In this document: positions 2,143 to 36,927 of the stretch, piece by piece | How positions within the stretch are numbered: position 1 is the stretch's first letter | How the letters are laid out: each line of letters opens with the position of its first letter | NCBI RefSeq assembly: GCF_000015565.1 | Contig: NC_008786.1 | Location: 2,108,001 to 2,172,000, forward strand | DNA from: Verminephrobacter eiseniae EF01-2 | GTDB taxonomy: Bacteria; Pseudomonadota; Gammaproteobacteria; Burkholderiales; Burkholderiaceae_C | Direction of reading: 5' to 3' | DNA: 64,000 bases | Program-made: the position numbers and the translations under genes | Notes under the pieces: generated by a model | Database searches by the model: none | What the model was told of the DNA's origin: nothing | What the model saw: only the letters and a program-made list of their open reading frames with translations

Positions 2143-2250
2143 TTCCATTCCTCGATCATCCGTGCACTTTGCCGGCTTCGCTTGCCGTGCATTCGTGCTG
2201 TCGGCGCTTCGCCTTCGCGTTCACGTTCACGAACGATTCAGAAATGGCAT
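2140..2250 (+). repeat. Stop-codon-abutting hairpin repeat, copy 1
   Basis: A 111-bp element starting with TGATTCCATT, of which the TGA is the stop of the preceding receptor gene. Its ends pair as an imperfect stem of about 16 positions (ATTCCATT near the start against AATGGCAT at 2243-2250). A near-identical copy lies at 63722-63827 on the minus strand and a shorter one at 19931-20000. The interior shares a run starting ATCCGTGCACTT and the palindrome-like TTCACGAACGATT near the end. Confidence 0.75.
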
Positions 2251-2286
2251 GGGGGCCGAGGTCCGTGGGTTCAGCCCGGATGAAAT

Positions 2287-2553
2287 TCAGGCCCGATGCG
2301 CTGCCACCCAGTCTTTCAGTGCATCGTTCATGCGCGTTTGCCAGCCGCTTCCGGTCGCTTTGAAGGCCTCGATCACATCGGCATCGAAGAGAATGGTCAA
2401 CAACTGCTGGGGCCGTGCCAGGCGCGGCCTGCCACGGTGCACGAGCTTGTCACCCGGGTACTCGTCGGCGCGCTCGAAAAACTCGTCGCCGAGTTCTGGC
2501 GCATCGTCCGGCCCAGGCGAGGCGGCGGGTGTATTTTGTGATTTCGCGTTCAT
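2287..2553 (-). CDS. brnA: BrnA-family antitoxin
   Basis: An 88-residue protein resembling BrnA antitoxins, which neutralise the BrnT ribonuclease and autorepress the operon. The N-terminal third is acidic and Pro-rich; the C-terminal part contains RLARPQQLLTILFDADVIEAF followed by GWQTRMNDALKDW, which matches the ribbon-helix-helix DNA-binding end of BrnA proteins (beta strand with a LLTI-type pattern, then a helix starting at DADVIEAFK). It lies downstream of, and overlaps by 104 nt, the brnT-like gene on the same strand, the usual toxin-antitoxin order. Length is normal for the family. Confidence 0.75.
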   Translation of the reverse strand: MNAKSQNTPAASPGPDDAPELGDEFFERADEYPGDKLVHRGRPRLARPQQLLTILFDADVIEAFKATGSGWQTRMNDALKDWVAAHRA

Positions 2554-5533: not shown

Positions 5534-5557
5534 GTGTGCCAGCCCGGAGGCAAGCCA

Positions 5558-8500: not shown

Positions 8501-9751
8501 CCCCCTCTGGCGTTCATCGGCAGCGCTGGCGCGTATTTCCCGGTGTGGCTCGTCAATGTGCTGCTGTGCTGCGTGACGCTGGGCCTGTACGCACCCTGGG
8601 CACGCCGCCGCACGGCCCGGTATTTCTACCGCCACACCCTGGTGGCCGGCCGCCCCCTCGAATTCACCGGACGACCGCGCCCGATGCTGCTGATCTTTGT
8701 GCTGCTGCTCCTGCTGGCTTACGGCGCCATGGCCAGTTTGTCCACTTTGATCTATCTGATCTATGAAAGAGGAGAGCTCGCGCTCTATGGCATGGCCGAA
8801 GGAGCAACCTTTTCGGCCTACGACATCACCGGGACATTCGGGCAGAACCTGGCCGTGGCATCGTTTGTGCTGGTCGGTGCGGCGCTGGCGCCCTTCTTTT
8901 GGGGCCATGCGATGCGCTTTCGTCTCGGGGCCACAGTCTGGCGCGGCCTGCATCTGCAATTTGCCGCCGGCTGGCGCGAGGTCTACCGCGCCAGCCGGCC
9001 GCTGAGGGTGATGGCGCTGTTGTGGACGGGCCTGTTCCTGTACATGCGGACGCTGGTGCCCGGGCTGGCCGATTCGTTCCTCACCTGGCGCGCATTGGTG
9101 TTGCCGGCCTTGGTGCTGACGCTGCTGTGCAGCATCCGCCTCGACTACGACAGCAAGAGTCTGCTGGCGCGCAATGTCTGGCTGGGCGCCGGGCAAGTCC
9201 GCTGGACGCCGGTGTACAGGGACTTCGTGAATGTCTGGCTGGCCACGGTGGTGCTGTTCATACTGTGCATGCCGGGCTTCGTGGCACTGAACGCGGTGCT
9301 GACGGGCGGCATCTTCGACCTGCTCGCCCGATTGCCTGTGCGCATGCCCCCCCGCACCGGCCTCACATGGTTCGTGCTTCTCGACTGGTTCCAGGAAACC
9401 CGCAGCCGCGTGTGGTTCGTGCTCACGATGGCGCTCTTTGGCCTGAGCAACTTTCTGCTGCTGATGCTGGTATCGACACCCGCCCGGGCGTACCGCGAGG
9501 CGCGCATGTTCCAACTGCTGTGGAACGGCATCGGCATCGGCCAGGCGGCGCACTGCAAATGCCGGCTGTCCAGCATCGGCTTTGTGCTGGCGCGCATCGG
9601 GAACCTGCTGCTGACCCTGCTCACGCTCGGGCTGTACCGCCCGTTTGCGCGCGTCAGCGAATACCGGATGAAGCTCGAATCGGTGACCCTGCATGTTGCC
9701 GACGGCGGTGTCGAGCAACTGACCGGGGCGCCAGCAGCCGGGCCTCGGTGA
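5558..9751 (+). CDS. Triple-domain DUF898 (YjgN-like) membrane protein
   Basis: A 1397-residue polytopic membrane protein made of three tandem DUF898/YjgN units, starting near residues 20, 508 and 980. Each unit opens with LAFTG(S/G)xGAYFxVW, followed by VNLLLCCVTLGLY and PWARxRTAxYFYRHTLVAG, and ends with ARAYREARMFQLxWN, a FKCRLSS-type stretch and LLLTLLTLGxYRP plus SEYRMKL. A single unit is the normal length of the family (E. coli YjgN is about 400 residues). Linkers, especially the first (about residues 445-507), are Ala/Pro/Gly-rich. ATG at 5558 is chosen for the GGAGG at 5546-5550 and because the paralogue at 10097 starts the same way (HPHPASGAAES). Function of the family is not established; inner-membrane location inferred from the hydrophobic segments. 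Confidence 0.85.
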   Translation: MYPHPASGAAESMPSPLPQEIEAHPLAFTGSGGAYFQVWIVNLLLCCVTLGLYIPWARRRTARYFYRHTLVAGSPLEFTGRLRVPVPGLALVAMLVLGWGIAWSLGLFWKLDICLAYDSARSGGPCQKITAGFLAGFLLSIVLLAPLVWGSAMRFRLDATRWRGLRLQSAASWRDIYRASWPLWVLALSWLGLYLARSATGAMPIGRQVLALLPAGLMGMFWQGAGLTDTLAKVFKAKIVTSDGLAWLLLGLMLALLCLARLDYDYRRLRVCKAQSGAGQGHWRQPEYRDCVNVWLAAVALFVLSAPMLGMLVGAALNAVLPKDAWVFILFGVMATMGKFYQLIFKDPTDVVVVGSILFLLLLVLSAPARAYREARMFQLMWNHIGIGQVARFKCRLSSVDFVLARFGNLLLTLLTLGLYRPLARVSEYRMKLESVTLYVKGGAGQVAGAPDDARAGDAAGRDSIGHAAPRDPAHDAGLAAGAQASGAPESAPILVPGPVPGAMPRNGYTHPLAFTGGTGAYFRVWIVNLLLCCVTLGLYTPWARQRTAQYFYRHTLVAGSPLEFTGRPRGQVLGFVLLLLLWLLLMLALASGILWSAWLHQMLRWIPIFDLRIKGDELPWLFRAAEWIPTFGIFASIGHKSMAVPVLAGAALLPWVWGSAMRFRLGATRWRGLRLQFASHWREIYGGSGLLWVLALLWGGLSWSLYFGFGPQPFSMPELLADKPAIARFTVMIAWLLGAALTLLCLCRLDYNRLDLLLRKTRVGAEPVRHKRPVLPNVMETWLVTVMLCMLGLSLGFVVWKCLPGGYFDKPPFFGVGRSRNGSASVMSVLYRVVIVVLPLLLLSAPARAYREARMFQLVWNGIGVNQAAHFKCRLSSDRFVLLRIQNLLLTLLTLGFYRPLARLSEYRMKLASVTLHVTGDLDQVAGAMLRQQTGLGAVPDFSGRRALRHYLQRAQWLAPLRRLVHKLGPESPIPEGGKLPPLAFIGSAGAYFPVWLVNVLLCCVTLGLYAPWARRRTARYFYRHTLVAGRPLEFTGRPRPMLLIFVLLLLLAYGAMASLSTLIYLIYERGELALYGMAEGATFSAYDITGTFGQNLAVASFVLVGAALAPFFWGHAMRFRLGATVWRGLHLQFAAGWREVYRASRPLRVMALLWTGLFLYMRTLVPGLADSFLTWRALVLPALVLTLLCSIRLDYDSKSLLARNVWLGAGQVRWTPVYRDFVNVWLATVVLFILCMPGFVALNAVLTGGIFDLLARLPVRMPPRTGLTWFVLLDWFQETRSRVWFVLTMALFGLSNFLLLMLVSTPARAYREARMFQLLWNGIGIGQAAHCKCRLSSIGFVLARIGNLLLTLLTLGLYRPFARVSEYRMKLESVTLHVADGGVEQLTGAPAAGPR

Positions 9752-9901
9752 TGCGCGTGCCGACACGGCGGGGCCGGGCCGGATCGGGGTGATGCAGCGC
9801 TGCGCCATCCGATCCCTGGCGGCTGCCTTGCTGCCATGCCGGGGCGTTGCCGGGATGGCTTGGGGCGGCCTCCATGCCCGGCCGCCTGTCCGATAGGCCG
9901 C

Positions 9902-9910
9902 TGTTACACT
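9902..9910 (+). promoter_or_regulatory. Possible extended -10 element, separated from its gene by a palindrome
   Basis: TGTTACACT is the counterpart of the element at 5525-5533. In the paralogous locus the conserved 21-nt block ends 13 nt before the start codon; here it ends 175 nt before it because the 162-bp palindrome lies between. Confidence 0.35.
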
Positions 9911-9921
9911 GCGCGTCAGCC

Positions 9922-10083
9922 TAGTGCCGCGTCACCGATCATCTGTCGGTCTGCGCTGGCCATCGAAGCGCATCGCGGCCTTGCATCGCTTGCCAATACG
10001 CTCGGTATGGGCCGCGCGATGCGCCTTGCGCTGCGCTCCGATGGCTGCGCGCAGCCTACGACATCTGATCCGTGACACGACAC
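9922..10083 (+). repeat. 162-bp palindromic (MITE-like) insertion
   Basis: A long imperfect inverted repeat. The outermost 25 nt (9924-9948 and 10059-10083) match as reverse complements at 20 of 25 positions, and the inner arms continue to pair in blocks around CCATCGAAGCGCA and TGCGCTCCGATGG. Comparison with the paralogous leader at 5524-5557 shows that removing exactly these 162 nt restores the same 13-nt spacing to the start codon. No open reading frame of note and no clear target duplication. It resembles a small non-autonomous transposable element or an RNA hairpin in the leader. The rest of the 9752-10096 gap shows nothing else I recognise. Confidence 0.7.
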
Positions 10084-10096
10084 GAGGGAGAATCCG

Positions 10097-11356
10097 ATGC
10101 ACCCACATCCAGCCAGTGGCGCGGCCGAGTCGGCACCAAGCCCGGCGCCACGAGACACCGAAGCCTACCCGCTGGAGTTCACCGGCAGCGCAGGCGCGTA
10201 TTTCCGGGTGTGGATCGTCAATCTGCTGCTGTGCTGCGTGACGGTCGGCATCTACACGCCCTGGGCCCGCCGCCGCACGGCGCAGTATTTCTACAGCCAC
10301 ACCCTGGTGGCCCATAGTCCCCTCGAATTCACCGGACGACTGCGCTCGATGGTGCTGGGCTTCGTGCTGGTGCTGCTGCTCCTTCTGGCCCGCGACATCG
10401 CCTCGATCACCGGGCAGAAACTGGTCGTGACGCTGCTGCTGCTGGCCGCTGCGGCGCTGGTGCCCTGGGCCTGGGGCAGCGCGATGCGCTTTCGCTTCAG
10501 GGCCACCCGCTGGCGCGGCCTGCGTCTGCAGTTTGCCGCCCGTTGGCGCGAGGTCTACCGCGCCAGTTGGCCCCTGTGGATGCTGGTGCCGCTGTGGTGG
10601 GTCCTGCTCCTGGGCCTGAAGTGGCTGGCGCCGGAAATGCCCAATGCCCCGGAGCCGAACGAGAAAACCACCGGCGTCACGCCCGCCGGGGGCGCGTGGC
10701 TGCTGCTCGGTCTGGTGCTGACGCTGCTGTGCATCATCCGCATCGACTACAACTGCAAGAACCTGCTGGTGTGCAAGGCCCGATGGGGCGCCGAGCAGGG
10801 CCACTGGAAGCTGGTGTACATGGACTTCGTGAAGGTTTGGCTGGCCTCGGTGGCGCTGTTCATGCTGTGCGTGCTGGGCTTTTGGGCACTGAGCGTCGTG
10901 CTGACGGGCCAGCTTTTCGGCGTGCTCGCCTGGTTGTTCGGGCGAGCGGACCCACGCACCGATCCCCTGTCGTTGGTGCTCACCATGCTGATCATTTACA
11001 TCGTTGGCGCCCTGCTGGCGCTGCTGTTGTCGGCGCCCGCCCGGGCGTACCGCGAGGCACGCATGTTCCAACTGGTCTGGAACCACATCGGCATCGGCCA
11101 GGTGGCGCGCTTCAAATGCCGGTTGGCCATCGGCCGCTATGTGCTGCTGCGCATCAGGAACCTGCTGCTGGTCTTGCTCACGCTGGGGTTCTACCGCCCG
11201 TATGCGCGGGTCAGCGAATACCGCATGCGGCTCGAATCGGTGACCCTGTATGTCAACGGCGGCGTCGAGCAGGTGGTCGGCGCGATGGTGCGCCAGCAGC
11301 CTGGCGGCCTCGGTGACGCGCTCGCCGACGCGGTGGGCCTGGACTTGATCGGGTGA
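10097..11356 (+). CDS. DUF898 (YjgN-like) membrane protein, single domain
   Basis: A 419-residue protein with one DUF898 unit, closely related to the three units of the neighbouring large protein: the N-terminus HPHPASGAAES, LEFTGSAGAYFRVWIVN, PWARRRTAQYFYSHTL and ARAYREARMFQLVWNHIGIG are shared. About eight hydrophobic segments suggest an inner-membrane protein. ATG at 10097 follows GAGGGAG. The stop overlaps the start of the M48 protease gene by 4 nt (ATGA), so the two are translationally coupled; DUF898 and M48 genes may act together in envelope maintenance, which is inference from linkage only. Confidence 0.85.
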   Translation: MHPHPASGAAESAPSPAPRDTEAYPLEFTGSAGAYFRVWIVNLLLCCVTVGIYTPWARRRTAQYFYSHTLVAHSPLEFTGRLRSMVLGFVLVLLLLLARDIASITGQKLVVTLLLLAAAALVPWAWGSAMRFRFRATRWRGLRLQFAARWREVYRASWPLWMLVPLWWVLLLGLKWLAPEMPNAPEPNEKTTGVTPAGGAWLLLGLVLTLLCIIRIDYNCKNLLVCKARWGAEQGHWKLVYMDFVKVWLASVALFMLCVLGFWALSVVLTGQLFGVLAWLFGRADPRTDPLSLVLTMLIIYIVGALLALLLSAPARAYREARMFQLVWNHIGIGQVARFKCRLAIGRYVLLRIRNLLLVLLTLGFYRPYARVSEYRMRLESVTLYVNGGVEQVVGAMVRQQPGGLGDALADAVGLDLIG

Positions 11357-12552
11357 TGCAGCGTCCTGCGTCCGCGTCTTTCACGGGCGCCCTGCTGCCG
11401 GGGCGCTGGTTCGACGGCCTGAGCAGCCGTGCCCGGCCGGTGCTGGTGGGCCTGCAAGCCACGCCCGAGGGGCCGGCGCTGATGCTGCATCCGCTGTCAT
11501 GCCCGGACGCTGCGCCGAATGTCTTCGGCCATGCCGAGGTGGACTGGCCCGAAACCTGGGACCTGTCGGCGCAACGCTGCGTGGTGCTCGATCTGCGCGA
11601 GCAGGGCAGCCTGGAGATCGATGCGCCGGGCCAATGGCGCGCCGCCCTTGCGGCCTGCGGCCAGCGCCCCGGCATTGCGCAGCGCATGCAGACCCGCTGG
11701 CCCTGGTTGCTGGGCATGGGCGCCGTGGCGGCCATCGGCCTGGCGCTGGTTTTCCGCTACGGCACGCCCTGGGTGGCCACGCAGCTCACGCGCTGGGTGC
11801 CCTTGGCCTGGGAGCGCAGCGTGGCCGAACGAGCGCTCGAGCAGCTCGAGCGCGGCCCGCTCAGGCCCTCGCAGCTTCCGCAGGAGCGGCAGGCGCAGTT
11901 GCGCGCGCGTTTCGCTGCGCTGGCCCGGCAGCCGCCGCCCGGCCTGCTGCGCTACCCCGGATACCGGCCGCAGTGGGCGCTGGAGTTTCGCTCCGGCATC
12001 GGCGCCAACGCCTTTGCGCTGCCCGGCGGCCAGGTGGTGCTGAGCGACCAGATCGTGCGGGCCGCTGCCGCCAACGGTCTGGATGACAACGCGCTGCTCG
12101 GCGTGCTGGCCCACGAGATCGGCCATGTGATGCAGCGCCACGGCACCCGCAATTTGGTGCAGCAGGGGGTGCTCGGCATGGGGCTGGGCTTGGCGCTGGG
12201 CGATATGTCCGGCATGCTGGCCGCCAGCGCTTACGCGCTCACGAGCCTGGCCTACAGCCGCGACCATGAACGCGAGGCCGACTGCTACGCGCTCGCCCTG
12301 ATGGGCTATCTGGCCTTGCCGACGGCGCCGATGGGCCAGTTGCTGCTGGGCATTGCGCAGGATGAGCAGGCGCAGGCCAAGGACGAGGACCCGTCCGGCA
12401 TCGAGGCGCGCGCCAGCGCCGAAGCCGCAGGCCGGCGCCACCAGGAAACCAGCGGGCCGCACCCGGCCTGGTCGCTGCTGAGCACCCATCCGGACACCGC
12501 GCAGCGCGCCATGCAACTGCAACGGGCAGACATGCCGCATTGCGCGCCGTAG
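11353..12552 (+). CDS. M48-family zinc metalloprotease
   Basis: A 399-residue protein with an N-terminal soluble region of about 110 residues, one transmembrane segment (about 117-137, LLGMGAVAAIGLALVF) and a C-terminal M48 protease domain. The zinc site is HEIGH at 254-258 in VLAHEIGHVMQRHG, with the third ligand region DHEREADCYAL about 40 residues later. This is the Oma1/LoiP-like arrangement with the catalytic part probably in the periplasm. It is coupled by an ATGA overlap to the DUF898 gene. The C-terminus ends near a histidine-containing HPAWSLLSTHPDTAQRA stretch normal for the family. Confidence 0.9.
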   Translation: MMQRPASASFTGALLPGRWFDGLSSRARPVLVGLQATPEGPALMLHPLSCPDAAPNVFGHAEVDWPETWDLSAQRCVVLDLREQGSLEIDAPGQWRAALAACGQRPGIAQRMQTRWPWLLGMGAVAAIGLALVFRYGTPWVATQLTRWVPLAWERSVAERALEQLERGPLRPSQLPQERQAQLRARFAALARQPPPGLLRYPGYRPQWALEFRSGIGANAFALPGGQVVLSDQIVRAAAANGLDDNALLGVLAHEIGHVMQRHGTRNLVQQGVLGMGLGLALGDMSGMLAASAYALTSLAYSRDHEREADCYALALMGYLALPTAPMGQLLLGIAQDEQAQAKDEDPSGIEARASAEAAGRRHQETSGPHPAWSLLSTHPDTAQRAMQLQRADMPHCAP

Positions 12553-12555
12553 GGT

Positions 12556-12604
12556 GGATGGCGGATGGCGGATGGCGGATGGCGGATGGCGGATGGCGGA
12601 TGGC
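12556..12604 (+). repeat. 7 x 7-bp tandem repeat (GGATGGC)
   Basis: Seven perfect consecutive copies of GGATGGC lie between the stop of the M48 gene and the 3' end of rnpB. It is a candidate variable-number locus. It lies immediately downstream of both converging transcripts, so it is transcribed into their 3' tails unless termination occurs earlier. Confidence 0.9.
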
Positions 12605-12995: not shown

Positions 12996-13868
12996 TCATG
13001 CGCCCGGCAACCCCAGCATCGCGCGCGCCTCTTGCGCCGTGGCCACTTCGCGGCCGGCGTTGCGGGCGCAGCGGGCCAACTGCTCGATCAGCGGGCCGTT
13101 GGAGTCCACCCGGGTGCCGTCGGGCAGGTAGAACAGGTCTTCCAGTCCGCTGCGCAGATGCCCGCCCAGCTCGGCCACGCGCTGGTGCACGGGCCAGACC
13201 TCGGCGCGGCCGATCACGGTGGCTTGCCAGGGGGCGCCCGCAATGGTGAGCCGCAGCAGGATGGGCAGCAGGTCCGGGTCGGCGGGCATGCCGGATTCGA
13301 CGCCCATCACGAAGTTGTACGCGGGCCGCCCCCGGGTGTAGATGCCGGTCTGAACGTACATCTGCACGCAGCGCACGATGCCCAGGTCGAAGCATTCGAA
13401 TTCGGGCAATGTGCCGGTCTCGGCCATCACGTCGATGAAGTCCTTGACCTTGGCCGGCGGGTTGTCGAACAGCATCGGCGGCCAGGCCCAACTGCCGTTG
13501 CTGCGCACCTTCAGGTAGTTCAGCGAGCCGGCGTTGCAGGCCGCCATTTCGGGCCGCGTCGCGCGCAGGCAGGCGATCGGGCCTTGGCAATGCGGGCCGA
13601 CCACGCCGGTGCTCTGGTTGATGATCAGGCCGGGGCAGGCTGCGCGCATGGCCTGCACGCAGTCGAGCGCCACCTGCGGCTCCCACGATGGCAGGTGGCC
13701 CTTGCCGGGCGCTTGCTGGCGAAAGTGCACATGCACCACGGTGGCGCCCGCATCGCAGGCGCGGCGCGCCTCGCGGGCGAGTTGCCCGGGGCTGACGGGC
13801 ACGGGGTGCTGCCCGGGGTCGGTCAACACGCCGGTGATGGCGCAGGTGATGATGGCCTTGTCGTTCAT
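12996..13868 (-). CDS. BKACE-family beta-keto acid cleavage enzyme (DUF849)
   Basis: A 290-residue TIM-barrel, zinc-dependent enzyme of the DUF849/BKACE family, relatives of 3-keto-5-aminohexanoate cleavage enzyme, which condense a beta-keto acid with acetyl-CoA to give an acyl-CoA and acetoacetate. The N-terminus AIITCAITGVLTDP, the metal-binding HVHFR around residue 45, NQSTG near 100 and the final SNGPLIEQLA region are characteristic. It is the last gene of the carboxylase operon and its start overlaps the stop of the biotin-carboxylase gene by 4 nt. The natural keto acid is unknown; the context suggests a product derived from branched or isoprenoid acyl-CoAs. Confidence 0.88.
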   Translation of the reverse strand: MNDKAIITCAITGVLTDPGQHPVPVSPGQLAREARRACDAGATVVHVHFRQQAPGKGHLPSWEPQVALDCVQAMRAACPGLIINQSTGVVGPHCQGPIACLRATRPEMAACNAGSLNYLKVRSNGSWAWPPMLFDNPPAKVKDFIDVMAETGTLPEFECFDLGIVRCVQMYVQTGIYTRGRPAYNFVMGVESGMPADPDLLPILLRLTIAGAPWQATVIGRAEVWPVHQRVAELGGHLRSGLEDLFYLPDGTRVDSNGPLIEQLARCARNAGREVATAQEARAMLGLPGA

Positions 13869-15928
13869 GGGGCTGTCTCCGGTGGTAATGCCGCTGCCGC
13901 CGCAAAGCGCGCCAGAACCTGGCCGGGCGACACCTGCTGGCCAGGGCCGACCAGCAACTCGGCCAGCGTCGCGGCGTCGGGGCTGGCCAGGCGGTGTTCG
14001 AGCTTCATGGATTCGATGACCACCACGGTCTCGCCCGCCGCCAGCGCCTGCCCCACGCTGGCGGGCAGGGCCAGCACGCGGCCGTTGCAGGGGGCGCGCA
14101 GTTCGCTGGCGTTGCCGGCCGCGCCCAGGCCGGTGCCGGCATCCGCGCCCGTGGCCGGCTCCCAGGATGCGTCTTGCACCCAGCCGTCGACGCTGCCGGC
14201 CTGCCAGTGCCAGCGCAGCGCGCCCACCGGCACGGCGCGCACGTCGTGCACCGTGCGCACGAGGTCATTGCCAGGCCCGCCCGGGTTGCCTGCGCCATCG
14301 GCCGCGCGCGCCAGGGTGCAGCGCATGCTGCCATCGGGCTGCGGTGTGAGCCGTAGCTCGGTGCTGCTGCCGGTCTGCCCGATCTGTAGCCGCCCGGCTC
14401 CGCACTCGCGCACGGTCAGCCGGTGCAACTGCCCCTGGTGGCGCAACTGCAGCGGCCGGGCCAGGCCGCAAGGCAGGGCCGATGCCGCAGCGTTTTCTGC
14501 ATATATGGCCGATAGCGCAGATGGAATGATGACCTGTAGCTCATTTTTCAATAGCGCCTGACGCAAATCATGCAGCGCCCCGTCCGGTTCGCGCAGAAAC
14601 GACACCAGCGCCTGTCCGCTGCGGAACCGGGGGTGATCCAGGCAGGCCGCAAGCAATGCGCGGTTGGTCGGCAGGCCCAGCACGCTGGTGCCATCGAGCG
14701 CGCGCACCAGCGCGGCAATGGCCTGCTCGCGTGTGGGCGCGTGCATGATCAGTTTGCCGAGCATCGCGTCGTAGTGGGGCGGGATGTCGCTGCCTGGCTC
14801 CAGCGCATGGTCGATGCGCAGCGCGCCGGATGCGGCGCGCCCGAACAGCGTGGCCGGCGGTGTGCTCCAGTGCAGCACGCGCCCGGTGTGCGGCTGAAAT
14901 TGCGCGTCTTCGGCGTACAGCCGCACTTCGATCGCATGGCCCTGCAGCGCCACCTGGTGCTGCGCCAGCGCCAGCGGCTCGCCGCGCGCCACGCGCAACT
15001 GCCACTCCACCAGGTCCAGCCCGGCGAGGGCTTCGGTCACCGGGTGCTCCACCTGCAGGCGGGTGTTCATCTCCAGCAGAAAAAACTGCCCCTCCTCGAG
15101 CAAAAACTCCACCGTGCCCGCGCCCACATAGCCCGCAGCGCGCGCCAATGCGACGGCGCAAGCGCCCAGGCGCTCGCGCAGCGCGGCATCGACGGCCGGG
15201 CTGGGCGATTCTTCGATGAGTTTCTGGTGGCGCCGCTGCACCGAGCAGTCGCGCTCGCCCAGGTGGATGCAGGCGCCATGCGCGTCGGCAAAGACCTGCA
15301 CCTCCAGATGGCGCGGGTGCAGCAGCGCGCGCTCGATCAGCAAATCGCCGCAGCCAAAACCGGCCAGCGCCTCCGAGCGCGCACTGGCCAGCGCGGCGGG
15401 CAACTGCGCGGCATCGGTCACCAGCCGCAGGCCCCGCCCGCCGCCGCCGGCGACGGCCTTGACCATCAGCGGATAGCCCGTGCGCCGGGCCTCGGCGGCA
15501 AAGCGCTCCGGGCTTTGGTCTGCGCCCGCATAGCCCGGCAGACAGGGCACGGCGTGCGCCGCCGCCAGCGCCTTGGCCGCCGCCTTGTTGCCCAGTGCGC
15601 GAATGGCCGCCGGCGGCGGGCCGACCCAGAGCAGGCCCGCATCCAGCACGGCCTGGGCAAAGTCGGCGTTCTCGCTCAGAAAGCCGTAGCCGGGGTGCAG
15701 CGCATCGGCGCCGGTGGCGCGCGCTGCGGCCAGCAGTTTGTCGCCGCGCAGGTAGCTGTCGGCGCTGGCCGCGCCGCCCAGCGCGACGGCCTGCGTGGCC
15801 TCGCGCACATGAAGGGCCTGCGCGTCAGGGTCGGAATGAACGGCCACGGTGGCAATGCCCATCGCGTGGGCGGTGTGGATCACCCGGCGGGCGATCTCGC
15901 CGCGATTGGCGACCAGCAGTTTTTTCAT
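13865..15928 (-). CDS. Acyl-CoA carboxylase alpha subunit (biotin carboxylase plus biotin carrier)
   Basis: A 687-residue protein: biotin carboxylase domains at about 1-445 (KKLLVANRGEIARRV at the start, VKAVAGGGGRGLR ATP-grasp loop, EMNTRLQVEHPVTE), a linker/BT region, and a C-terminal biotinyl domain with ESMKLEH, Lys642 being the biotin site (SMKL instead of the usual AMKM). It belongs to the methylcrotonyl/geranyl/propionyl-CoA carboxylase alpha group. The start at 15928 is set by the MKKLLVANRGE opening typical of the family. An AT-richer stretch at about 14495-14560 encodes LLKNELQVIIPSALSAIYAE between the carboxylase and carrier parts. Partner of the carboxyltransferase gene two genes upstream in the operon. 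Confidence 0.9.
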   Translation of the reverse strand: MKKLLVANRGEIARRVIHTAHAMGIATVAVHSDPDAQALHVREATQAVALGGAASADSYLRGDKLLAAARATGADALHPGYGFLSENADFAQAVLDAGLLWVGPPPAAIRALGNKAAAKALAAAHAVPCLPGYAGADQSPERFAAEARRTGYPLMVKAVAGGGGRGLRLVTDAAQLPAALASARSEALAGFGCGDLLIERALLHPRHLEVQVFADAHGACIHLGERDCSVQRRHQKLIEESPSPAVDAALRERLGACAVALARAAGYVGAGTVEFLLEEGQFFLLEMNTRLQVEHPVTEALAGLDLVEWQLRVARGEPLALAQHQVALQGHAIEVRLYAEDAQFQPHTGRVLHWSTPPATLFGRAASGALRIDHALEPGSDIPPHYDAMLGKLIMHAPTREQAIAALVRALDGTSVLGLPTNRALLAACLDHPRFRSGQALVSFLREPDGALHDLRQALLKNELQVIIPSALSAIYAENAAASALPCGLARPLQLRHQGQLHRLTVRECGAGRLQIGQTGSSTELRLTPQPDGSMRCTLARAADGAGNPGGPGNDLVRTVHDVRAVPVGALRWHWQAGSVDGWVQDASWEPATGADAGTGLGAAGNASELRAPCNGRVLALPASVGQALAAGETVVVIESMKLEHRLASPDAATLAELLVGPGQQVSPGQVLARFAAAAALPPETAP

Positions 15929-16020
15929 GGGCCGTGCCCGCGCGCCAAGACCCCCGGCGCATCCGTCGGTGTCAGCCGCTGCGCAAGTTGCACGGATGCG
16001 GGATTCAGCCATGGCGGCTC

Positions 16021-16080
16021 ACGGGAGTGGCTTGGCCTTCGGCGGCGGTGCGAGCGCCTTCGGGCGGCCGTGCGGCGCTG
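16021..16080 (-). repeat. Peptide-coding repeat, copy A
   Basis: On the minus strand this 60-bp stretch reads AGCGCCGCACGGCCGCCCGA and on, and its translation contains SAARPPEGARTAAEG then ATPVS. The same peptide pattern is encoded at 24090-24149, 28963-29024 and 36259-36322. Here it lies in the 260-bp gap between the biotin-carboxylase and acyl-CoA dehydrogenase genes and is not joined to either in frame. Confidence 0.7.
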
Positions 16081-16188
16081 ATTGGACCCCTGCCCACGGT
16101 GTGACGGATGGAAGGTGGCATGACCGGCGATGGGTTCGTTTTCCGATGCGGCGGCGGCCATCGGCATGGTTTGGCCCGCGCCCCATGT

Positions 16189-24004: not shown

Positions 24005-24314
24005 GGTGCAACACCCCGTGTCGCCAGCGGTGGCCTGCCCTTGAAGGCGGCGCCCCCGGGCGTGTGGGCCGTGGGTGATGCACAGTGACCGGCATCGGCG
24101 CCGTCCGGAGACGCCCACACCGTAGCTGAAGGCACTCCGGTGAGCGCGTGCATCCCGAACTGCGGTCGCGCAACTTCACGCACCAGGGCCACATGGCGCG
24201 CTTCTTCGCGCCCCACCCGTGCTGGTGCTTGACATCCGGGGGGCAGCGCGGTCTCCGCCATCGGGTTCAAATGTCCCATTGACAGAACATTGAAACGGCA
24301 AAAACATCAACGGC
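24005..24314 (+). other. Intergenic region between argF and the catabolic operon
   Basis: 310 bp without a credible gene. It contains copy B of the peptide-coding repeat (24090-24149). TTGACA occurs at 24229-24234 and again at 24279-24284; the second would place a weak -10 (AAACAT) just before the GntR start, so the operon promoter may lie here. No terminator with a T-run is visible after argF. Confidence 0.5.
24090..24149 (+). repeat. Peptide-coding repeat, copy B
   Basis: Non-genic copy of the repeat. One frame reads SGDAHTVAEGTPVSACI, matching the HTVAEGEGTPVSA stretch of the isochorismatase-like protein at 36259. The upstream part is shorter than in the other copies. Confidence 0.6.
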
Positions 24315-27235: not shown

Positions 27236-28212
27236 ATGCGGGAAGCAGGCAACTCGCGGGCATCGCGCTCTTTGCCGTGCTGGTCGGCTGCGTGCCGCTG
27301 CTCACCCGGTCCGGCGCCATGCTCCACTTCGTGATGATGGCGCTCTACGCCACGCTCATCGCGCAGGCCTGGAACATCCTCGGCGGCTTCGGCGGGCAAT
27401 TCTCATTCGGCCACGCGCTGTTCTTCGGCACCGGCGCCTACATCCAGGCCATTGCGCAACTGCAAGGCGGCATCAACCCGTGGGCAGCGTTGCCGATGGC
27501 CATGGCCGGTAGCGCGCTCGTCGGCCTGCTCGTCGGTGCGCCCACCTTCCGCTGCGGTCTCAAAGGCTCGTACTTCGCGCTCGTCACGCTGGCCTTCGCC
27601 GAGGTGTCGCGCATCGTCGCGCTCTCGGTTTCCTTCACCGGCGGTGGCGTCGGCCTGATGCTGCCGCTGCGCGAATCGGCCGGCAACCTGCAATTCGCTT
27701 CGCGCGCCGGCTACCTGTGGGTGGCGCTGGCCATGGTCGTCGGCGCGCTGCTCGTCACCTGGTGGCTGCGCAACGGCCGCTTCGGCGCCTGCCTGCAGGC
27801 CGTGCGCGACGACGAGGACGCCGCGCGCGCCGTCGGCGTGAACCCGTTGCGCGTCAAGCTCGCGGCCATCAGCCTCTCGGCGGCCTTCATGGGCGCGGCC
27901 GGTGCGTTCTACCTGCAGGTGTTCCAGTACATCGACCCCGGCATCGCCTACGGCCCGGCCACCTCGGTCGAGGCGCTGGTCGGCGCCATCGTCGGCGGCA
28001 TGGGCACATTGTGGGGCCCGGTGCTCGGCGCGGCCGTGCTGCATCTGTTGTCGGATTTGACGCGCAACCTGTTTGGTGCGCTGCCGGGCATCAACATGGT
28101 CATCTACGGTAGCGCACTGGTGCTCATCGTGATCTTTTTGCCGCGCGGCGTCGCCGGCCTGGGGCTTTCGGTGCGGCAGCGGTGGAACGCGAAGGCAGGC
28201 CACAATGACTGA
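27232..28212 (+). CDS. ABC transporter permease, LivM family
   Basis: A 326-residue permease. GGFGGQFSFGHALFFGTGAYIQA is the LivM signature near residue 50, and the coupling region FGACLQAVRDDEDAARAVGVN followed by VKLAAISLSAAFMGAAGAFY is present. ATG at 27232 is set by the ATGA overlap with livH; the frame is open far upstream but that is livH read in another frame. Its end overlaps the next gene by 8 nt. Confidence 0.92.
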   Translation: MNAGSRQLAGIALFAVLVGCVPLLTRSGAMLHFVMMALYATLIAQAWNILGGFGGQFSFGHALFFGTGAYIQAIAQLQGGINPWAALPMAMAGSALVGLLVGAPTFRCGLKGSYFALVTLAFAEVSRIVALSVSFTGGGVGLMLPLRESAGNLQFASRAGYLWVALAMVVGALLVTWWLRNGRFGACLQAVRDDEDAARAVGVNPLRVKLAAISLSAAFMGAAGAFYLQVFQYIDPGIAYGPATSVEALVGAIVGGMGTLWGPVLGAAVLHLLSDLTRNLFGALPGINMVIYGSALVLIVIFLPRGVAGLGLSVRQRWNAKAGHND

Positions 28213-28966
28213 GCCTGTTTTGCAACTCGATGGCGTCTCGCGCGCATTCGGCGGCCTCAAGGCCGTGCAGAACGTGAGTCTGGCCGTGCAGGAAGGCAGT
28301 CTCACGGCGCTGATCGGCCCGAACGGCGCCGGCAAGACCACGCTGTTCGCGCTCATGTCCGGCTTCCTGAAGCCCGACACCGGCAGCGTGCGCCTGGCCG
28401 GGCAGGACATCACCGGCCGCGCGCCGCATCGCAATGCCGCGCTTGGCATGACGCGCACGTTCCAGATCGTCAAGCCCTTTGCCGCGCAGACCGTGCGCGA
28501 GAACATCGCGGTGGGCGCACACCTGCATCTGCGCCACCGCGCCGAGGCGCTGGCCTGTGCCGAGACCGTCGCACGGCGCGTGGGGCTTGGCGCCCAACTC
28601 GACAAGCCCGCTTGCGATCTGACGGTGGCCGGCTGCAAGCGCCTGGAACTGGCCCGCGCGCTCGCCACACGGCCGCGCCTGCTGCTGCTCGACGAAGTGC
28701 TCGCAGGGCTGAACCCGCAGGAGATCTCCGGGATGATGCCGGTGGTGCGCGGCATCGCCGACAGCGGCGTGACCGTGCTGATGATCGAGCATGTGATGCA
28801 GGCCGTAATGAACCTGGCCGAGCATGTGTGGGTGTTGGCGCAGGGCCGGCTCATTGCCGAAGGTAGCCCGGCGCAGGTTGTCTGCGACGACCGGGTCATC
28901 CAAGCCTACCTGGGCCATGGCACCGCTGCGCGGCTGCGCAAGGTCGCTGCGGGAACTGCGGCATGA
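28205..28966 (+). CDS. ABC transporter ATP-binding protein, LivG family
   Basis: A 253-residue ATPase with Walker A GPNGAGKTT at about residues 37-45, the LivG-specific MTRTFQIVKPF segment, a modified signature region (TVAGCKRLELARALA) and Walker B LLLLDEVLAGLNP. It energises the importer with the LivF-type subunit. The gene overlaps LivM by 8 nt and the following LivF gene by 4 nt. Confidence 0.92.
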   Translation: MTEPVLQLDGVSRAFGGLKAVQNVSLAVQEGSLTALIGPNGAGKTTLFALMSGFLKPDTGSVRLAGQDITGRAPHRNAALGMTRTFQIVKPFAAQTVRENIAVGAHLHLRHRAEALACAETVARRVGLGAQLDKPACDLTVAGCKRLELARALATRPRLLLLDEVLAGLNPQEISGMMPVVRGIADSGVTVLMIEHVMQAVMNLAEHVWVLAQGRLIAEGSPAQVVCDDRVIQAYLGHGTAARLRKVAAGTAA

Positions 28967-29024
28967 GCGCCGCGCGGTCGCCCGAAGGCGCCCATGCCGC
29001 AGCCGAAGGCGCGCCAGTGGGCGC
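28963..29024 (+). repeat. Peptide-coding repeat, copy C (N-terminus of LivF-like protein)
   Basis: The first 62 bp of the livF-like gene are a copy of the repeat, encoding MSAARSPEGAHAAAEGAPVG. The canonical LivF sequence begins only after it (LLDIRGLCGGYG). Confidence 0.7.
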
Positions 29025-29727
29025 ACTGCTCGACATTCGCGGCCTGTGCGGCGGCTACGGCCGCGTCCAAGTGCTGCGCGGCGTGGACCTGCAGGTCCAC
29101 GCCGGCGAAATGGTCGCGCTGCTCGGCAGCAATGGCGCGGGCAAGACGACCCTGAACAAGACGGTCTGCGGCCTGTGCCGCGCATGGAGCGGAACCATTC
29201 GCTTCGATGGCAAGGACCTGAGCGGCGCGCATTACCGCGCGGTGGTCAAGGCCGGCCTGATCCAGGTGCCCGAGGGGCGCAAGGTATTTCCCGACCTCAG
29301 CGTGCGGGAGAACTTGGAACTGGGCTCCTTCACCCGCGCCCACGAACGCCGCGCGGCCAATATCGAGAAGATGTTCCACCTCTTTCCGCGGCTGCGCGAA
29401 TGCATGGCGCAGCGCGCCGGCACCATGAGCGGCGGCGAGCAGCAAATGCTGGCCATCGCGCGCGGACTGATGGCCGAGCCCGTGCTGCTGATCCTCGACG
29501 AACCCTCGCTCGGCCTCGCGCCACGGCTGGTGCAAGAGATGTTCGCGCTGATCCGCACGTTGCGCGACGGCGGCCTGGCGGTGCTGCTCGTCGAGCAGAA
29601 CGTCGGCCAGTCGCTGGAGATCGCCGACCGCGCCTGCGTGCTGGAGAACGGCAGCATGCGCTTTTCCGGCACGCCCGAGGCGCTGCTCGGCAGCGACATG
29701 CTGCGGCGTGCATACCTGGGGCTATGA
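28963..29727 (+). CDS. ABC transporter ATP-binding protein, LivF family, with repeat-derived N-terminus
   Basis: A 254-residue ATPase: Walker A GSNGAGKTT, the LivF block LIQVPEGRKVFPDLSVRENL, signature MSGGEQQMLAIARGL and Walker B LLILDEPSLGLAP. The first 20 residues (SAARSPEGAHAAAEGAPVGA) have no counterpart in normal LivF proteins and come from the dispersed repeat also found at the start of the isochorismatase-like gene. The start overlaps LivG by 4 nt, and no later start codon sits close to the conserved region, so the extension is probably translated. Confidence 0.9.
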   Translation: MSAARSPEGAHAAAEGAPVGALLDIRGLCGGYGRVQVLRGVDLQVHAGEMVALLGSNGAGKTTLNKTVCGLCRAWSGTIRFDGKDLSGAHYRAVVKAGLIQVPEGRKVFPDLSVRENLELGSFTRAHERRAANIEKMFHLFPRLRECMAQRAGTMSGGEQQMLAIARGLMAEPVLLILDEPSLGLAPRLVQEMFALIRTLRDGGLAVLLVEQNVGQSLEIADRACVLENGSMRFSGTPEALLGSDMLRRAYLGL

Positions 29728-32509: not shown

Positions 32510-34211
32510 CCCAGCCAGCGCCATCGACCCCGTCACGCTCGCCGTGCTGCGCGGCCGCCTCGAACAGGTGGCCGACGAGATGGACGCCACGCTCTACCGC
32601 AGCGCATTCAACCCCATCATTGCCGAGGCGCATGACGCCTGCCACGGCCTGTACGACGCCAGCACCGGCGACACGCTGGTGCAGGGCAAGTCGGGCCTGC
32701 CGGTGTTCGTCGGCGCGATGGCCTTCGCGGTGCGCGCCACGGCCCGGGTGGCCGCCTCGCGCGGCGGCATGAAAGACGGCGATATCTGGATCAGCAACGA
32801 CGCCTACGACGGCGGCACACATGCCAACGACTTCAAGCTCGTCAAGCCCTTTTTCCGTGGCGCCAAGCTCTACTGCCACATGGCCTCGGCCGCGCACTGG
32901 CACGACGTGGGCGGTGCGGTGCCGGGCAACTACAACCCGGCAGCCACCGAGTGCTGGCAGGAGGCGGTGCAGATTCCGCCGGTGCGCATCGTGCGCAACG
33001 GCGTGCTCGACCCCGACATGCTCGCCATCTTGCAGGCCAACACACGCCTGCCCGACAGCCTGTGGGGCGACCTGAACGGCCAACTCGCCGCGCTGGCGCT
33101 TGGCGCCAGGCGGCTCGATGCCCTGCTCGACGAGTACGGCGATGGCCTGGTGCTGGACGCGCTGGGCGCGTTGCGCGGCCGCGCGCTGCGCCTGATGCGC
33201 TCGCATATCGCCGCGCTGCCCGACGGCCGCTACAGCTTCGAGGATGTGCTGGACAACGACGGCATCGTCAACGCGCCGCTGACCATCGCGCTCGACATGA
33301 CGGTGGCCGGCGACCGCTTGTCGCTCGATTTCTCACGCACCTGCGCGCAGTGCGCGGGGCCGGTCAACATCTCGCGCGCGACGGCCGTGGCCGCCTGCTA
33401 CGTTGCGCTCAAGCATCTGTTTCCCGACGTGCCTGCCAATGCCGGCGTGCTCGACGCGGTGGACTTCATCATCCCCGACCGGCTGCTGATCAGCGCCGAG
33501 CGCCCGCGCCCGGTCGGGGGTTACACCGAGACCATCCTGCGCATGATCGACGTGATCTTCAGCGCGGCCGCGCAGGCCGACCCCGCGCGCGCCGTGGCGC
33601 AGGCCTACGGCACCATCAACGCGCTGTCGATCGCGGGCCACCGCAGCGACAAGGCGCGTGCAGGCCAGCGTTGGGTGATGTTCAGTTTTTTCGGCGGCGG
33701 TCATGGCGGGCACTCGGACGGCGACGGCCTGGCGCATGGCAATGCGCCGATCTCGACCGCGACGATTCCACCGCTGGAGATTCTTGAAGCGGCCTACCCG
33801 GTGCGCTTTACCCAATGGTCGCTGCGCGCAGACTCGGGCGGCGACGGCCAGCACCGTGGCGGCCTGGGCGCGGTCTATGAAATCGAGTTGCTCGAAAAAG
33901 AGGCTGAGGTGTTCGTCTTCGGCGAACGCGGCACCTCGCCGCCCAAGGGCATCGCAGGCGGCGGCGCTGGCGCGGTCAATGTGTTGCGCTACGAGAACGC
34001 AGGCCAATGGCATACGCCGCCGATGGTCTCGAAGATGCGCGCCATCCGGCTGGCGCGCGGCGAGCGCGTGCGCCTGGAAACCCCGGGCGGTGGCGGCTGG
34101 GGCAGCGCCGCCGGGCGCAGCCCCGGGCAGCGCCAGGCCGATGTGGCCATGGGCTACGTCACGATCGACGCCAGCACCGGCGCGGACCGGACGCAGAAGG
34201 CACCCGAATGA
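32502..34211 (+). CDS. hyuB: Hydantoinase B/oxoprolinase family protein
   Basis: A 569-residue HyuB-type subunit. It opens with IDPVTLAVLRGRLEQVADEMDATLYRSAFN and has NDAYDGGTHANDF, FSGG-like histidine segments (AHWHDVGGAVPG) and the C-terminal GGGGWG, all typical. With HyuA it forms ATP-dependent enzymes that open cyclic amides such as 5-oxoproline or N-methylhydantoin; the same family also contains acetophenone and acetone carboxylases, but those have an extra gamma subunit not seen here. Overlaps hyuA by 4 nt. Confidence 0.9.
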   Translation: MSDPASAIDPVTLAVLRGRLEQVADEMDATLYRSAFNPIIAEAHDACHGLYDASTGDTLVQGKSGLPVFVGAMAFAVRATARVAASRGGMKDGDIWISNDAYDGGTHANDFKLVKPFFRGAKLYCHMASAAHWHDVGGAVPGNYNPAATECWQEAVQIPPVRIVRNGVLDPDMLAILQANTRLPDSLWGDLNGQLAALALGARRLDALLDEYGDGLVLDALGALRGRALRLMRSHIAALPDGRYSFEDVLDNDGIVNAPLTIALDMTVAGDRLSLDFSRTCAQCAGPVNISRATAVAACYVALKHLFPDVPANAGVLDAVDFIIPDRLLISAERPRPVGGYTETILRMIDVIFSAAAQADPARAVAQAYGTINALSIAGHRSDKARAGQRWVMFSFFGGGHGGHSDGDGLAHGNAPISTATIPPLEILEAAYPVRFTQWSLRADSGGDGQHRGGLGAVYEIELLEKEAEVFVFGERGTSPPKGIAGGGAGAVNVLRYENAGQWHTPPMVSKMRAIRLARGERVRLETPGGGGWGSAAGRSPGQRQADVAMGYVTIDASTGADRTQKAPE

Positions 34212-36262
34212 GCTGCGCTGGCAAATCCCTGGTCGTCGGCGTCGATGTCGGCGGCACCTTCACCGATCTTTTCGTGCTCGACGAGGCCCTCGGCACGGTG
34301 CGCATCATCAAAGTGCCTTCCACGCGCGGCGAGGAAGCGCGCGGCTTCCTGCACGGCCTGGCGCGCGTGGCCGATTCGGCGGCGGCCATCGCCACCATCG
34401 TGCACGGCACCACGGTCGGCACCAACGCGCTGCTGGAGCGCAAAGTGGCGCGCACCGGCATCATCACCACGCGCGGTTTCCGCGACGTGCTGGAGATGCG
34501 CCGCCGGGACCGTCCGCAGACCTGGGGCCTGCGCGGCAGTTTCCTGCCGGTTGTGCCGCGCGACCTGCGCCGCGAGGTCGACGAGCGCGTGCTGGCCGAC
34601 GGCACGCTGCACACACCAGTCGATTTGGAACAGGTGCGCACCGAAACACGTTCGTTGCTCGCCGCCGGTTGCGAGGCGGTGTGCGTTTTCTTCATCAACA
34701 CCTACGCCAACCCCGAGAACGAGCGCCTGGCCGTGACGGCAGTGCGCGCACTCTGGCCCAACCCGCATGTCACGTCGGCCCACGAGGTGCTGCCCGAGAT
34801 CCGCGAGTTCGAGCGTTGCTCGACCGCCGCACTCAACGCGGCGTTGCAGCCGGTGCTGGGCCGCTACCTCGGCCGGCTCGACAGCGACCTGCGCGCGCAG
34901 GGCTTTGGCGGCGAACTGCTGGTGGTGCAAAGCAACGGCGGCCTGATGTCGCGCCAGACCGCGATCGACCTGCCGGTGCGCACCGCGCTGTCAGGCCCGG
35001 CGGCGGGCGTGATCGCCTGCGCGAGCATTGCACGCGCGGCGGGTTTTCCGGATGCGATCACGGGCGACATGGGCGGTACGTCGTTCGATGTGTCGCTGGT
35101 GGCCGACGGCCAAGCCGCGCTGGCGCCGCAGAGCGCCATCGAGTTCGGCATGGTGATCCGCTCGCCGATGATCCAGATCGAGACCATCGGCGCCGGTGGC
35201 GGCTCCATCGCATCGGTGGACGCGAGCGGCATGTTGCAGGTCGGCCCGGAGTCGGTCGGCAGCGTGCCGGGGCCGGCCTGCTACGGGCGCGGCGGCATGT
35301 ATGCGACCGTGACCGACGCGAACCTGCTGTTGGGACGCATCGCGGCCGAGCGCCCGCTCGGCCGCGGGTTCCTCGCGGCGCTGGACGCGCAAAAGTCGCG
35401 CCAAGCCATCGAGGAACATGTCGCGCGCCCGCTGGCCCTGGACGTGCACGCGGCGGCCGAGGCGATCCTCACGGTGGCCAATGCGCGCATGGCCGGCGCG
35501 ATCCGCCTCGTGTCCATCGAGCGCGGGCACGACCCGCGCCGCTTCGCCTACATGCCATTCGGCGGCGGCGGCGCGCTGCATGTCTGCGCCATGATGCGCG
35601 AGGTCGGCGTCGCCATGGGCATCGTGCCGCGCTACCCGGGCGTCACCTCGGCCCTGGGCTGCGTGATCGCCGACATGCGCCACGACGCGGTGCAGACCAT
35701 CAACCAGCCGCTGAGCGACCTCGACGCGACCGACTTGCGCCGCCGCATCGATGAACTGGCCGCCCACTGCCAGCAGCGCCTGGATTCGTCGGGCATGCGC
35801 TTTGACGATTTGCGTGCGCTGATCGCGCTCGACATGCTCTACGCCGGCCAGACGCACACCTTGTCCGTGCTGCTGGCCGATCCGGGCCAGACGCCGCTGA
35901 CGGCCGAATCGGTGCGCGCTGCTTTCGATGCCGCTTACACCGCAGCCTTCGGCCGCGTGCTCGACGGCATCGCCATCCGCGTGCTGAACCTGCGCTATGC
36001 GCGCATCGGCGTGCGGCCCAAGTTCGATCTGGCCGTGCTGGCGCCCAAAGGCAAAGGCAGCAGCGCGCCGCTGGGCGTGCAGCAGGTGTTCCATCGAGGC
36101 CGGTGGCACGACGCGGTGCGCTACGCGCGGCTCGCACTGCCCGTGGCCGCGCGCATCGACGGCCCCGCGATCCTCGAACAGGCCGACACCACCGTGTGGC
36201 TCGAACCGGGCTTTCATGCCGAAGTCGATGCGCATGGCAACCTGCTGGTGAGGGCATCATGA
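34208..36262 (+). CDS. hyuA: Hydantoinase A/oxoprolinase family protein (ATP-binding subunit)
   Basis: A 684-residue HyuA-type subunit of the ASKHA fold. The phosphate-binding VVGVDVGGTFTDLFVLD is at residues 9-25, followed by IVHGTTVGTNALLERK and, in the second half, GDMGGTSFDVSLV and FGGGGALHVCAMM. It phosphorylates the cyclic amide to allow ring opening by HyuB. ATG at 34208 overlaps hyuB by 4 nt; upstream codons in frame belong to hyuB in another frame. Its stop overlaps the isochorismatase-like gene. Confidence 0.9.
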   Translation: MSCAGKSLVVGVDVGGTFTDLFVLDEALGTVRIIKVPSTRGEEARGFLHGLARVADSAAAIATIVHGTTVGTNALLERKVARTGIITTRGFRDVLEMRRRDRPQTWGLRGSFLPVVPRDLRREVDERVLADGTLHTPVDLEQVRTETRSLLAAGCEAVCVFFINTYANPENERLAVTAVRALWPNPHVTSAHEVLPEIREFERCSTAALNAALQPVLGRYLGRLDSDLRAQGFGGELLVVQSNGGLMSRQTAIDLPVRTALSGPAAGVIACASIARAAGFPDAITGDMGGTSFDVSLVADGQAALAPQSAIEFGMVIRSPMIQIETIGAGGGSIASVDASGMLQVGPESVGSVPGPACYGRGGMYATVTDANLLLGRIAAERPLGRGFLAALDAQKSRQAIEEHVARPLALDVHAAAEAILTVANARMAGAIRLVSIERGHDPRRFAYMPFGGGGALHVCAMMREVGVAMGIVPRYPGVTSALGCVIADMRHDAVQTINQPLSDLDATDLRRRIDELAAHCQQRLDSSGMRFDDLRALIALDMLYAGQTHTLSVLLADPGQTPLTAESVRAAFDAAYTAAFGRVLDGIAIRVLNLRYARIGVRPKFDLAVLAPKGKGSSAPLGVQQVFHRGRWHDAVRYARLALPVAARIDGPAILEQADTTVWLEPGFHAEVDAHGNLLVRAS

Positions 36263-36322
36263 GCGCAGCGCGGCCGCCCGAAGGCGCTCATACCGTAGCC
36301 GAGGGCGAAGGTACTCCAGTGA
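36259..36322 (+). repeat. Peptide-coding repeat, copy D (N-terminus of isochorismatase-like protein)
   Basis: The first 64 bp of the gene are the best-conserved copy of the repeat, encoding MSAARPPEGAHTVAEGEGTP and then VSA. The conserved enzyme domain begins only at about residue 27 (PKTALLIIDLQND). Confidence 0.75.
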
Positions 36323-36927
36323 GCGCGAAGATCGTCGCGCCCAAGACGGCGCTGCTCATCATCGACCTGCAAAACGACTTTCTCGACGCGAACGGCGCCT
36401 ACGCTCGCGGCGGCGACACCAACCCGCCGGCGTTGCTGTTGCCCGGGCGCGTGGCCGCCGTGGCGCGCGCGCTCAAGGCGGCCGGCGGACTGGTCGTCGC
36501 GAGCCAGTTCACGCTCTGGCCCGACGCCGCCGGCGCGCCGATGGTGCCGCCGCATCTGAAGGCATTGCGCCCGTACCTGGCCAAAGGCGACTTCGCGCCC
36601 GGCAGTTGGGGCCAGGCCAATGTCGACGCGCTCGCGGGCCTGGTCGATGTGACGATCAGCAAGGTCATGTACTCGGCCTTCTTCAATACCCAGCTCGACT
36701 GGGTGCTGCGCCGCGCGGGCATCGACACCGTGGCGGTCTGCGGCATCGTCACCAACGGCGGCGTGGCCAGCACGGTGCGCGATGCGCAGATGCGCGACTA
36801 CCGCACGCTGGTGCTGGCCGACGGTTGCGCTGCCTTCGGCGCAAAGCGCCACCAGACCGCGCTGGCCGATATGCGCAATGTGGCCGAGGTCACCGCGTGC
36901 GCGCCTTTCATCGATTCGCTGGCATGA
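36259..36927 (+). CDS. Isochorismatase-like hydrolase, catalytic Cys position occupied by Gly
   Basis: A 222-residue alpha/beta protein of the isochorismatase-like (cysteine amidase) superfamily. The aspartate of LIIDLQNDF and the lysine of TISKVMYSAFFNT are present. In amidases of this family the nucleophile is the cysteine of a TNxC motif; here the stretch is GIVTNGGVAST, so Gly takes that place. That argues against a standard carbamoylsarcosine- or maleamate-amidase mechanism and recalls true isochorismatases such as PhzD. The N-terminal 24 residues derive from a dispersed repeat. The gene overlaps hyuA and the FAD oxidoreductase gene by 4 nt each. Confidence 0.82.
   Translation: MSAARPPEGAHTVAEGEGTPVSAKIVAPKTALLIIDLQNDFLDANGAYARGGDTNPPALLLPGRVAAVARALKAAGGLVVASQFTLWPDAAGAPMVPPHLKALRPYLAKGDFAPGSWGQANVDALAGLVDVTISKVMYSAFFNTQLDWVLRRAGIDTVAVCGIVTNGGVASTVRDAQMRDYRTLVLADGCAAFGAKRHQTALADMRNVAEVTACAPFIDSLA

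Follow-up and report, generated by a model that had tools for sequence, protein, structure and literature searches.

Short elements of 60 or 62 bp, located mostly where the stop codon of one gene and the start codon of the next overlap as NTGA, form a family that is probably a mobile translation relay, with the 60-bp form mostly read as an extension of the downstream protein. In Verminephrobacter eiseniae EF01-2, probably a symbiont of earthworms, the element usually takes the form of an N-terminal extension, and elsewhere a predicted relay is the commonest design. We infer movement, coupling and the order of events from sequence, and it is the distribution of copies together with empty sites in relatives that points to mobility. 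The chances seem about even for a fuller account, in which a lineage-wide relay that hides the next Shine-Dalgarno sequence in a hairpin lost a base pair and the resulting extension cassette spread through the symbiont proteome.

Repeat units in V. eiseniae EF01-2

A sequence-only reading of a 64-kb window (the whole stretch of DNA analyzed) had claimed four copies of a repeat of about 60 bp, two at gene starts and two intergenic. We located all four (Table 1). Their similarity is far beyond chance: a 35-base core had 173 matches with at most three mismatches in the whole genome, against 0 for the reversed pattern. The degenerate intergenic copy is flanked by an ornithine-carbamoyltransferase-like ORF (named by eye), which ends at 24004, and by an ORF that starts at 24315.

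Table 1. Repeat copies in the window, their parts and the adjoining genes
Feature	Position	Strand	Description
Focal repeat copy	36259..36318	+	One full 60-bp unit; reads MSAARPPEGAHTVAEGEGTP and continues as VSAK... in the isochorismatase-like protein; bases directly 3' are GTGAGC
ATGA overlap	36259..36262	+	Hydantoinase-like ORF 34007-36262 ends in this TGA; fused ORF 36259-36927 begins with the ATG
Hairpin 1, 5' arm, ATGAGCGCA	36259..36267	+	Start codon inside the arm
Hairpin 1, 3' arm, GGCGCTCAT	36283..36291	+	8/9 positions paired with the 5' arm in the focal copy
Hairpin 2, ACC-GTA-GCC-GAG-GGC-GAA-GGT	36292..36312	+	From RNA fold and pair counts
Shine-Dalgarno-like AAGG	36308-36311	+	Inside hairpin 2 of the focal copy
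In-frame GTG, 3' border of focal unit	36319..36321	+	Probably matches the start region of relatives
Upstream gene, hydantoinase/oxoprolinase-like	34007..36262	+	Pfam PF01968, PF05378, PF19278
Downstream gene, isochorismatase-like	36259..36927	+	222 aa with 20-codon N-terminal extension; PF00857 at residues 30-213
Second coding copy	28963..29016	+	54-bp unit (6-bp deletion) at the ATGA overlap of two branched-chain amino acid type ABC ATPase genes
LivG-like ATPase	28205..28966	+	Upstream of the 28963 copy; PF00005, PF12399
LivF-like ATPase	28963..29727	+	Fused downstream gene, 254 aa; PF00005 from residue 38; name rests on position and the sequence-only reading
Full unit, intergenic	about 16023..16082	-	ATC instead of a start codon; directly upstream of the biotin-carboxylase-like ORF
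Biotin-carboxylase-like ORF	13865-16012	-	Name from translation by eye
Degenerate intergenic copy	24090..24149	+	Recognizable mainly in its second half

We analyzed arrays in 69 fetched stretches plus the window, which together contain 150 of the 173 core matches. Our script delimited 75 arrays with 154 units, one to eight units per array, and as split by the script (which counted array L010 as two) 36 of the 75 hold at least two units. Of 79 spacings between neighboring units, 73 were 60 bp, five (L010) 59 bp and one 51 bp. Array L010 (about 2036-2440, minus strand) has six units whose 59-bp spacing puts each successive unit in another frame; no other fetched array is built this way. At internal unit borders we saw shared types (TCCTTC, TCGATC, GTGCGC and GCGAGC) at unlinked loci, which look as if whole arrays or subfamilies had spread. 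Array sizes of up to eight units and the 173 core matches suggest amplification in V. eiseniae EF01-2; a strict near-identical pattern was present in just four of 148 relatives, this genome included.

The element had also been proposed to enter at start codons, and its position agrees with this. RTGA opens 58 of the 75 arrays (42 ATGA, 16 GTGA), preceded by C at base -1 in 54. Four further arrays (L030, L031, L048 and L052) start with RTGA by eye at a shifted border and stand outside the 58, as do some with RTGG or an altered start. In 39 of the 58 RTGA arrays this TGA ends an upstream frame that is open for 100 codons or more; in the other 19 the upstream frame is shorter than 100 codons, which counts against coupling, since a coupled gene should depend on one upstream of it. 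Upstream and downstream frames both reach at least 100 codons in 32 of the 58, compared with 7.1% of the 2175 further RTGA sites that these loci contain, and both reach at least 60 codons in 36 of the 58, compared with 15.4% of these control sites. Empty sites in relatives, described below, point the same way.

If most copies were intergenic and frameshifted, the preserved reading frame could be put down to chance, as the earlier reading itself allowed. What we found is that 47 of the 58 arrays run on in frame for more than 60 codons beyond the array, though 11 fail. This is a modest excess only, because 61% of control RTGA sites are also open for 60 codons. Among the 11, three reach a long ORF through another overlap and seven stop without one. 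The last, L027 (about 2065-2130), carries two extra 3' bases, and its 21-codon ORF stops on a GTGA at which a 407-codon ORF starts. L027 is a 62-bp relay within this genome, as in the 62-bp relatives described below. The 3' border placed by the script, wrong for at least L025 and L027, was GTG in 34 of the 58 arrays, GCG in 14, ATG in one and another triplet in nine; the Shine-Dalgarno match ahead of it is mostly 4 nt (50 of 58). Pfam domains were detected in 19 of the 20 fused proteins scanned (of 41 eligible). Among the scanned proteins, that at L036 has its hydantoinase domain from residue 19, apparently an insertion inside a gene body.

The wider family, with filled and empty sites

We trained a covariance model on the first units of the 58 RTGA arrays in V. 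eiseniae EF01-2; training on RTGA-starting units favors the recovery of RTGA copies. Of 250 genomes searched in the taxonomic family of the window, 138 matched, among them V. eiseniae EF01-2 itself; the matches span 91 of 141 genera. About 20 candidates were scored per genome, and copies per genome are lower bounds. A class-wide draw gave three matches in 229 genomes: V. eiseniae EF01-2 again, a second member of its family, and a third genome at E 2e-4, this last being one of at most 226 genomes of the class outside the family. Since the strict pattern is found in so few relatives, the evidence for a wide distribution comes from the covariance model. An exact-pattern scan, from which 12 stretches were read, named Variovorax, Xenophilus, Xylophilus and Acidovorax as carriers.

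Scanning 100 of 109 fetched family loci gave 114 matches in 103 locus groups, 97 of them with a 5' NTGA, or 95 after removal of two duplicates. These 95 loci are best or listed matches from 30 genomes, two of which supply about a third. In 65 of the 95, one to three mini-ORFs lead to a long ORF; another 25 show an in-frame fusion, and five are broken. The upstream frame has at least 100 codons in 85. At 753 control RTGA sites, an upstream frame of 100 codons combined with a relay occurs in 2.8%, and combined with a fusion in 10%. Relay links in genomes other than V. eiseniae EF01-2 are at -4 in 68 of 74 cases. The proposal of an N-terminal tag element is partly supported: an extension is usual in the window's own genome and a special case in the family, where a separate mini-ORF prevails.

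The commonest form, with exactly 62 bases from TGA to TGA, accounts for 54 of the 95 loci. It consists of a 21-codon mini-ORF between two NTGA overlaps, with its stop overlapping the next start. GGAGG or GGAGGT stands 5-8 nt ahead of the downstream start in 46 of these 54 loci, compared with a Shine-Dalgarno sequence (at least 5 nt) ahead of the 5' start in 10, which bears out the suggestion that the element brings translation signals with it. On an annotated Variovorax plasmid the element lies between two ABC permease genes, with a stop at 2004 and the next start at 2066. Two Variovorax plasmid copies lie ahead of a gene whose upstream neighbor is divergent, which counts against coupling.

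The extension of the isochorismatase-like protein had been said to be lacking in its family. Eighteen residues, following the first two, are indeed absent in eight of 10 aligned relatives; 24 are absent in one and six in the last, P0001. Among those listed, relatives are mostly 204 aa long, versus 222 aa for the fused protein. The element comprises 20 codons versus this 18-residue gap, and the native N-termini differ by about two. P0001 is an isochorismatase of 216 aa, 98% identical, that starts MIGDATLAEGEGTPVSA; it has a partly replaced element and comes perhaps from another strain.

Relatives' DNA contains the NTGA overlap without the repeat at the focal locus (in genome G003), at L072 (in G001, G003 and G062) and at L021 (in G001 and G003). 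These are loci with a clear alignment at the junction, a set that does not include L013 and L077. The L021 junction in G062 has a family-like unit, seen by eye in the alignment and left out of the counts. Empty and filled states are found at one junction within a genus: at the ftsW-murG junction (named by eye), G200 has ATGA alone, and G300 and G355 have a 60-bp unit at the same spot. Two other inserts occupy this same ATGA in G353 (L235) and G354 (L233). One of them, of about 60 bp, has its own GGAGG before ATGA; there may be further families of the same habit. In G001 and G045 two ABC ATPase genes, identified by eye, flank a repeat copy, an arrangement shared by an Acidovorax sp. sif1233 record (L115).

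Structural constraint and a proposed relay

The sequence-only reading had taken the peptide to be the preserved feature; our substitution counts do not favor this. Among array-unique substitutions within units (leaving out the first 9 bases and 12 of the 154 units, which have indels), 133 of 327 were synonymous versus 146.5 expected from position shuffling, and 0 nonsense changes were seen versus 0.57 expected. There is no sign of purifying selection on the repeat peptide in this synonymous test of own-genome units. RNA folding predicts two hairpins per unit, with 3.1 changes per site at paired positions versus 7.6 at unpaired positions (permutation p 0.035). Folding energy is mostly unremarkable (z > -1 in eight of 13 folds; range +0.80 to -2.65). 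The 9-bp stem that includes the start codon is perfect in 32 of the 58 first units (permuted mean 14.5, maximum 25 in 20,000) and in only two of 79 internal units. In the first units ATG faces CAT in 40 and GTG faces CAC in 13, with five exceptions. Doubly changed pair cells numbered 21 versus 4.9 after shuffling, nearly all in hairpin 1, a count that relatedness of copies may inflate, with several double changes mutually different. Changes that compensate each other in the stems alter peptide residues.

The same holds across the family. Of the 95 loci, 80 share the common loop form and were counted; in 53 of these the 7-bp first stem is perfect, compared with a permuted mean of 21 and maximum of 33, and it is built from 10 different paired arm sequences. 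Over all 114 matches, double changes occur in 14 of 18 pairs, with 136 cells versus 30.9 when shuffled and at most nine with slid partners; the alignment was fitted to the model, and this count leans towards structure. The Shine-Dalgarno hexamer has a mean predicted pairing probability of 0.65 (46 copies). Outside V. eiseniae EF01-2 the start codon mostly faces CGC and is incompletely paired (A-C in 66 of 80); a fully paired start codon is typical of that genome only. Constraint is better supported on nucleotide structure than on the peptide, because paired positions vary less and the stems covary.

We propose that a ribosome finishing the upstream gene would restart on the mini-ORF at the first NTGA overlap. 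While translating the mini-ORF it would open both hairpins, including the predicted pairing of part of the Shine-Dalgarno sequence in the second; it would then end on the second overlap and start the next gene. Insertion would be cheap for the host, since the ribosome is handed on. Counting against such a relay, structure just after an upstream stop lowers coupling according to work cited in the passages of PMC12548453 that bear on this. The inner stem of hairpin 2 has 4 bp in five of seven folded 62-bp units (the other two fold differently) and 3 bp in the folded 60-bp units of V. eiseniae EF01-2. A hairpin 2 shorter by one base pair would remove two bases, giving 60 bp and placing both NTGA overlaps in one frame. 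Because the overlaps then share a frame, each unit would mostly add 20 residues to the N-terminus of the downstream protein. We infer the loss of one hairpin base pair as the historical step in this model; the 62-bp relay at L027 is what the reverse of the 62-to-60 change would give.

A second reading, unlikely in our view, is that the hairpins are a substrate for DNA movement, REP- or MITE-like, and that the overlap is a tolerated insertion site with no translational role. Stem covariation and the 4-bp NTGA direct repeat would fit such an element, as would the copies at starts that have no co-oriented upstream neighbor. However, movement needs neither a canonical Shine-Dalgarno sequence at the right spacing, present in 46 of 54 loci, nor a stop/start register at both ends. 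We found no enzyme for moving the element; a RAYT/Y1 transposase was considered and rejected, as the sole PF01797 match in the own genome (G000:C2:2708122) is about 97 kb away from the closest of the listed copies.

It is considerably less probable that the extensions are neutral debris left by old copies, which flexible N-termini tolerate and which neither move nor serve any role today. The lack of selection on the peptide agrees with this, as do the decay or missing start codon of two of the four window copies and the 11 of 58 arrays that do not run on in frame; yet near-identical units, presence and absence at one junction within a genus, and kept stem pairing argue for recent activity or constraint. 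Least probable of all is a functional N-terminal tag selected at the protein level: the frame continues in 47 of 58 arrays, and with a GCG border (14 of 58) any expression from the 5' start would entail translating the extension, but synonymous changes show no excess (133 of 327 versus 146.5), compensating stem changes alter residues, and elsewhere the peptide is more often detached from the downstream protein (65 of 95 versus 25).

If the mobile translation relay is correct, its visible sequence signals make the mechanism testable. Two bases of length can make the difference between a free mini-ORF and N-terminal extensions that recur on dozens of predicted proteins. The extension cassette would be a route to new protein ends and a likely cause of mis-annotated starts in many genomes.

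Comparison with known repeats

MIRUs appear to be mobile, to insert at start codons and to have their ORF coupled to the gene at -4 nt, in the account that a 2025 review gives of them (PMC12548453); their unit is put at 40-100 bp in the relevant passage of PMC2734929. Our repeat, at 60 or 62 bp, is likewise short, dispersed and often tandem, and resembles MIRUs by position only, in start-codon entry and -4 links; in V. eiseniae EF01-2 its 3' side is mostly fused instead. It differs from MIRUs, which we compared by description, in belonging to another lineage and in having covarying hairpins, a built-in Shine-Dalgarno sequence and an in-frame 60-bp form. By position it may work like a MIRU, and we do not class it as one. 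If the relay reading holds, the MIRU strategy of entering at stop/start overlaps and leaving expression unbroken is present in a second lineage.

REP/RAYT elements are also short, dispersed, hairpin-forming repeats, and in this our repeat is like them. To our knowledge they are not defined by stop/start overlaps.

The Bordetella repeat BRE is a tandem, dispersed betaproteobacterial repeat, mostly intergenic, with some copies overlapping ORF ends by a few bases; in the parts of PMC3110155 that describe it, its full length in Bordetella is 75-91 bp and one copy is counted in V. eiseniae EF01-2. Judged by that description, units of 60-62 bp with 173 core matches are not BRE. The V. eiseniae palindromic repeat VeiPR1, likewise of high copy number, makes up about 2.3% of the genome, by the figure given in PMC3975124. 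Against this figure, 173 units of 60 bp amount to about 0.2%, and we rejected identity with VeiPR1 on copy number. Rfam families gave 0 matches at gathering score in 10 loci (54,008 bases), and the repeat had no match in phage records. We found no earlier description of it in the literature searched, whose reach mostly excluded subscription journals.

Other repeats were seen along the way. Loci L009-L077 contain further, partly palindromic repeats, for example with the k-mers GATCGGTGACGCGACACTA and CGATGGCTGCGCGCAGCC, at about 20 copies each in 356 kb of own-genome DNA; these are better candidates for VeiPR1. In the window, positions 5552-11305 hold a segment of about 1.4 kb in four tandem copies with 60-84% similarity in blocks, apparently repeated membrane-protein-like genes, and positions 12548-12603 hold a short tandem GGATGGC run.
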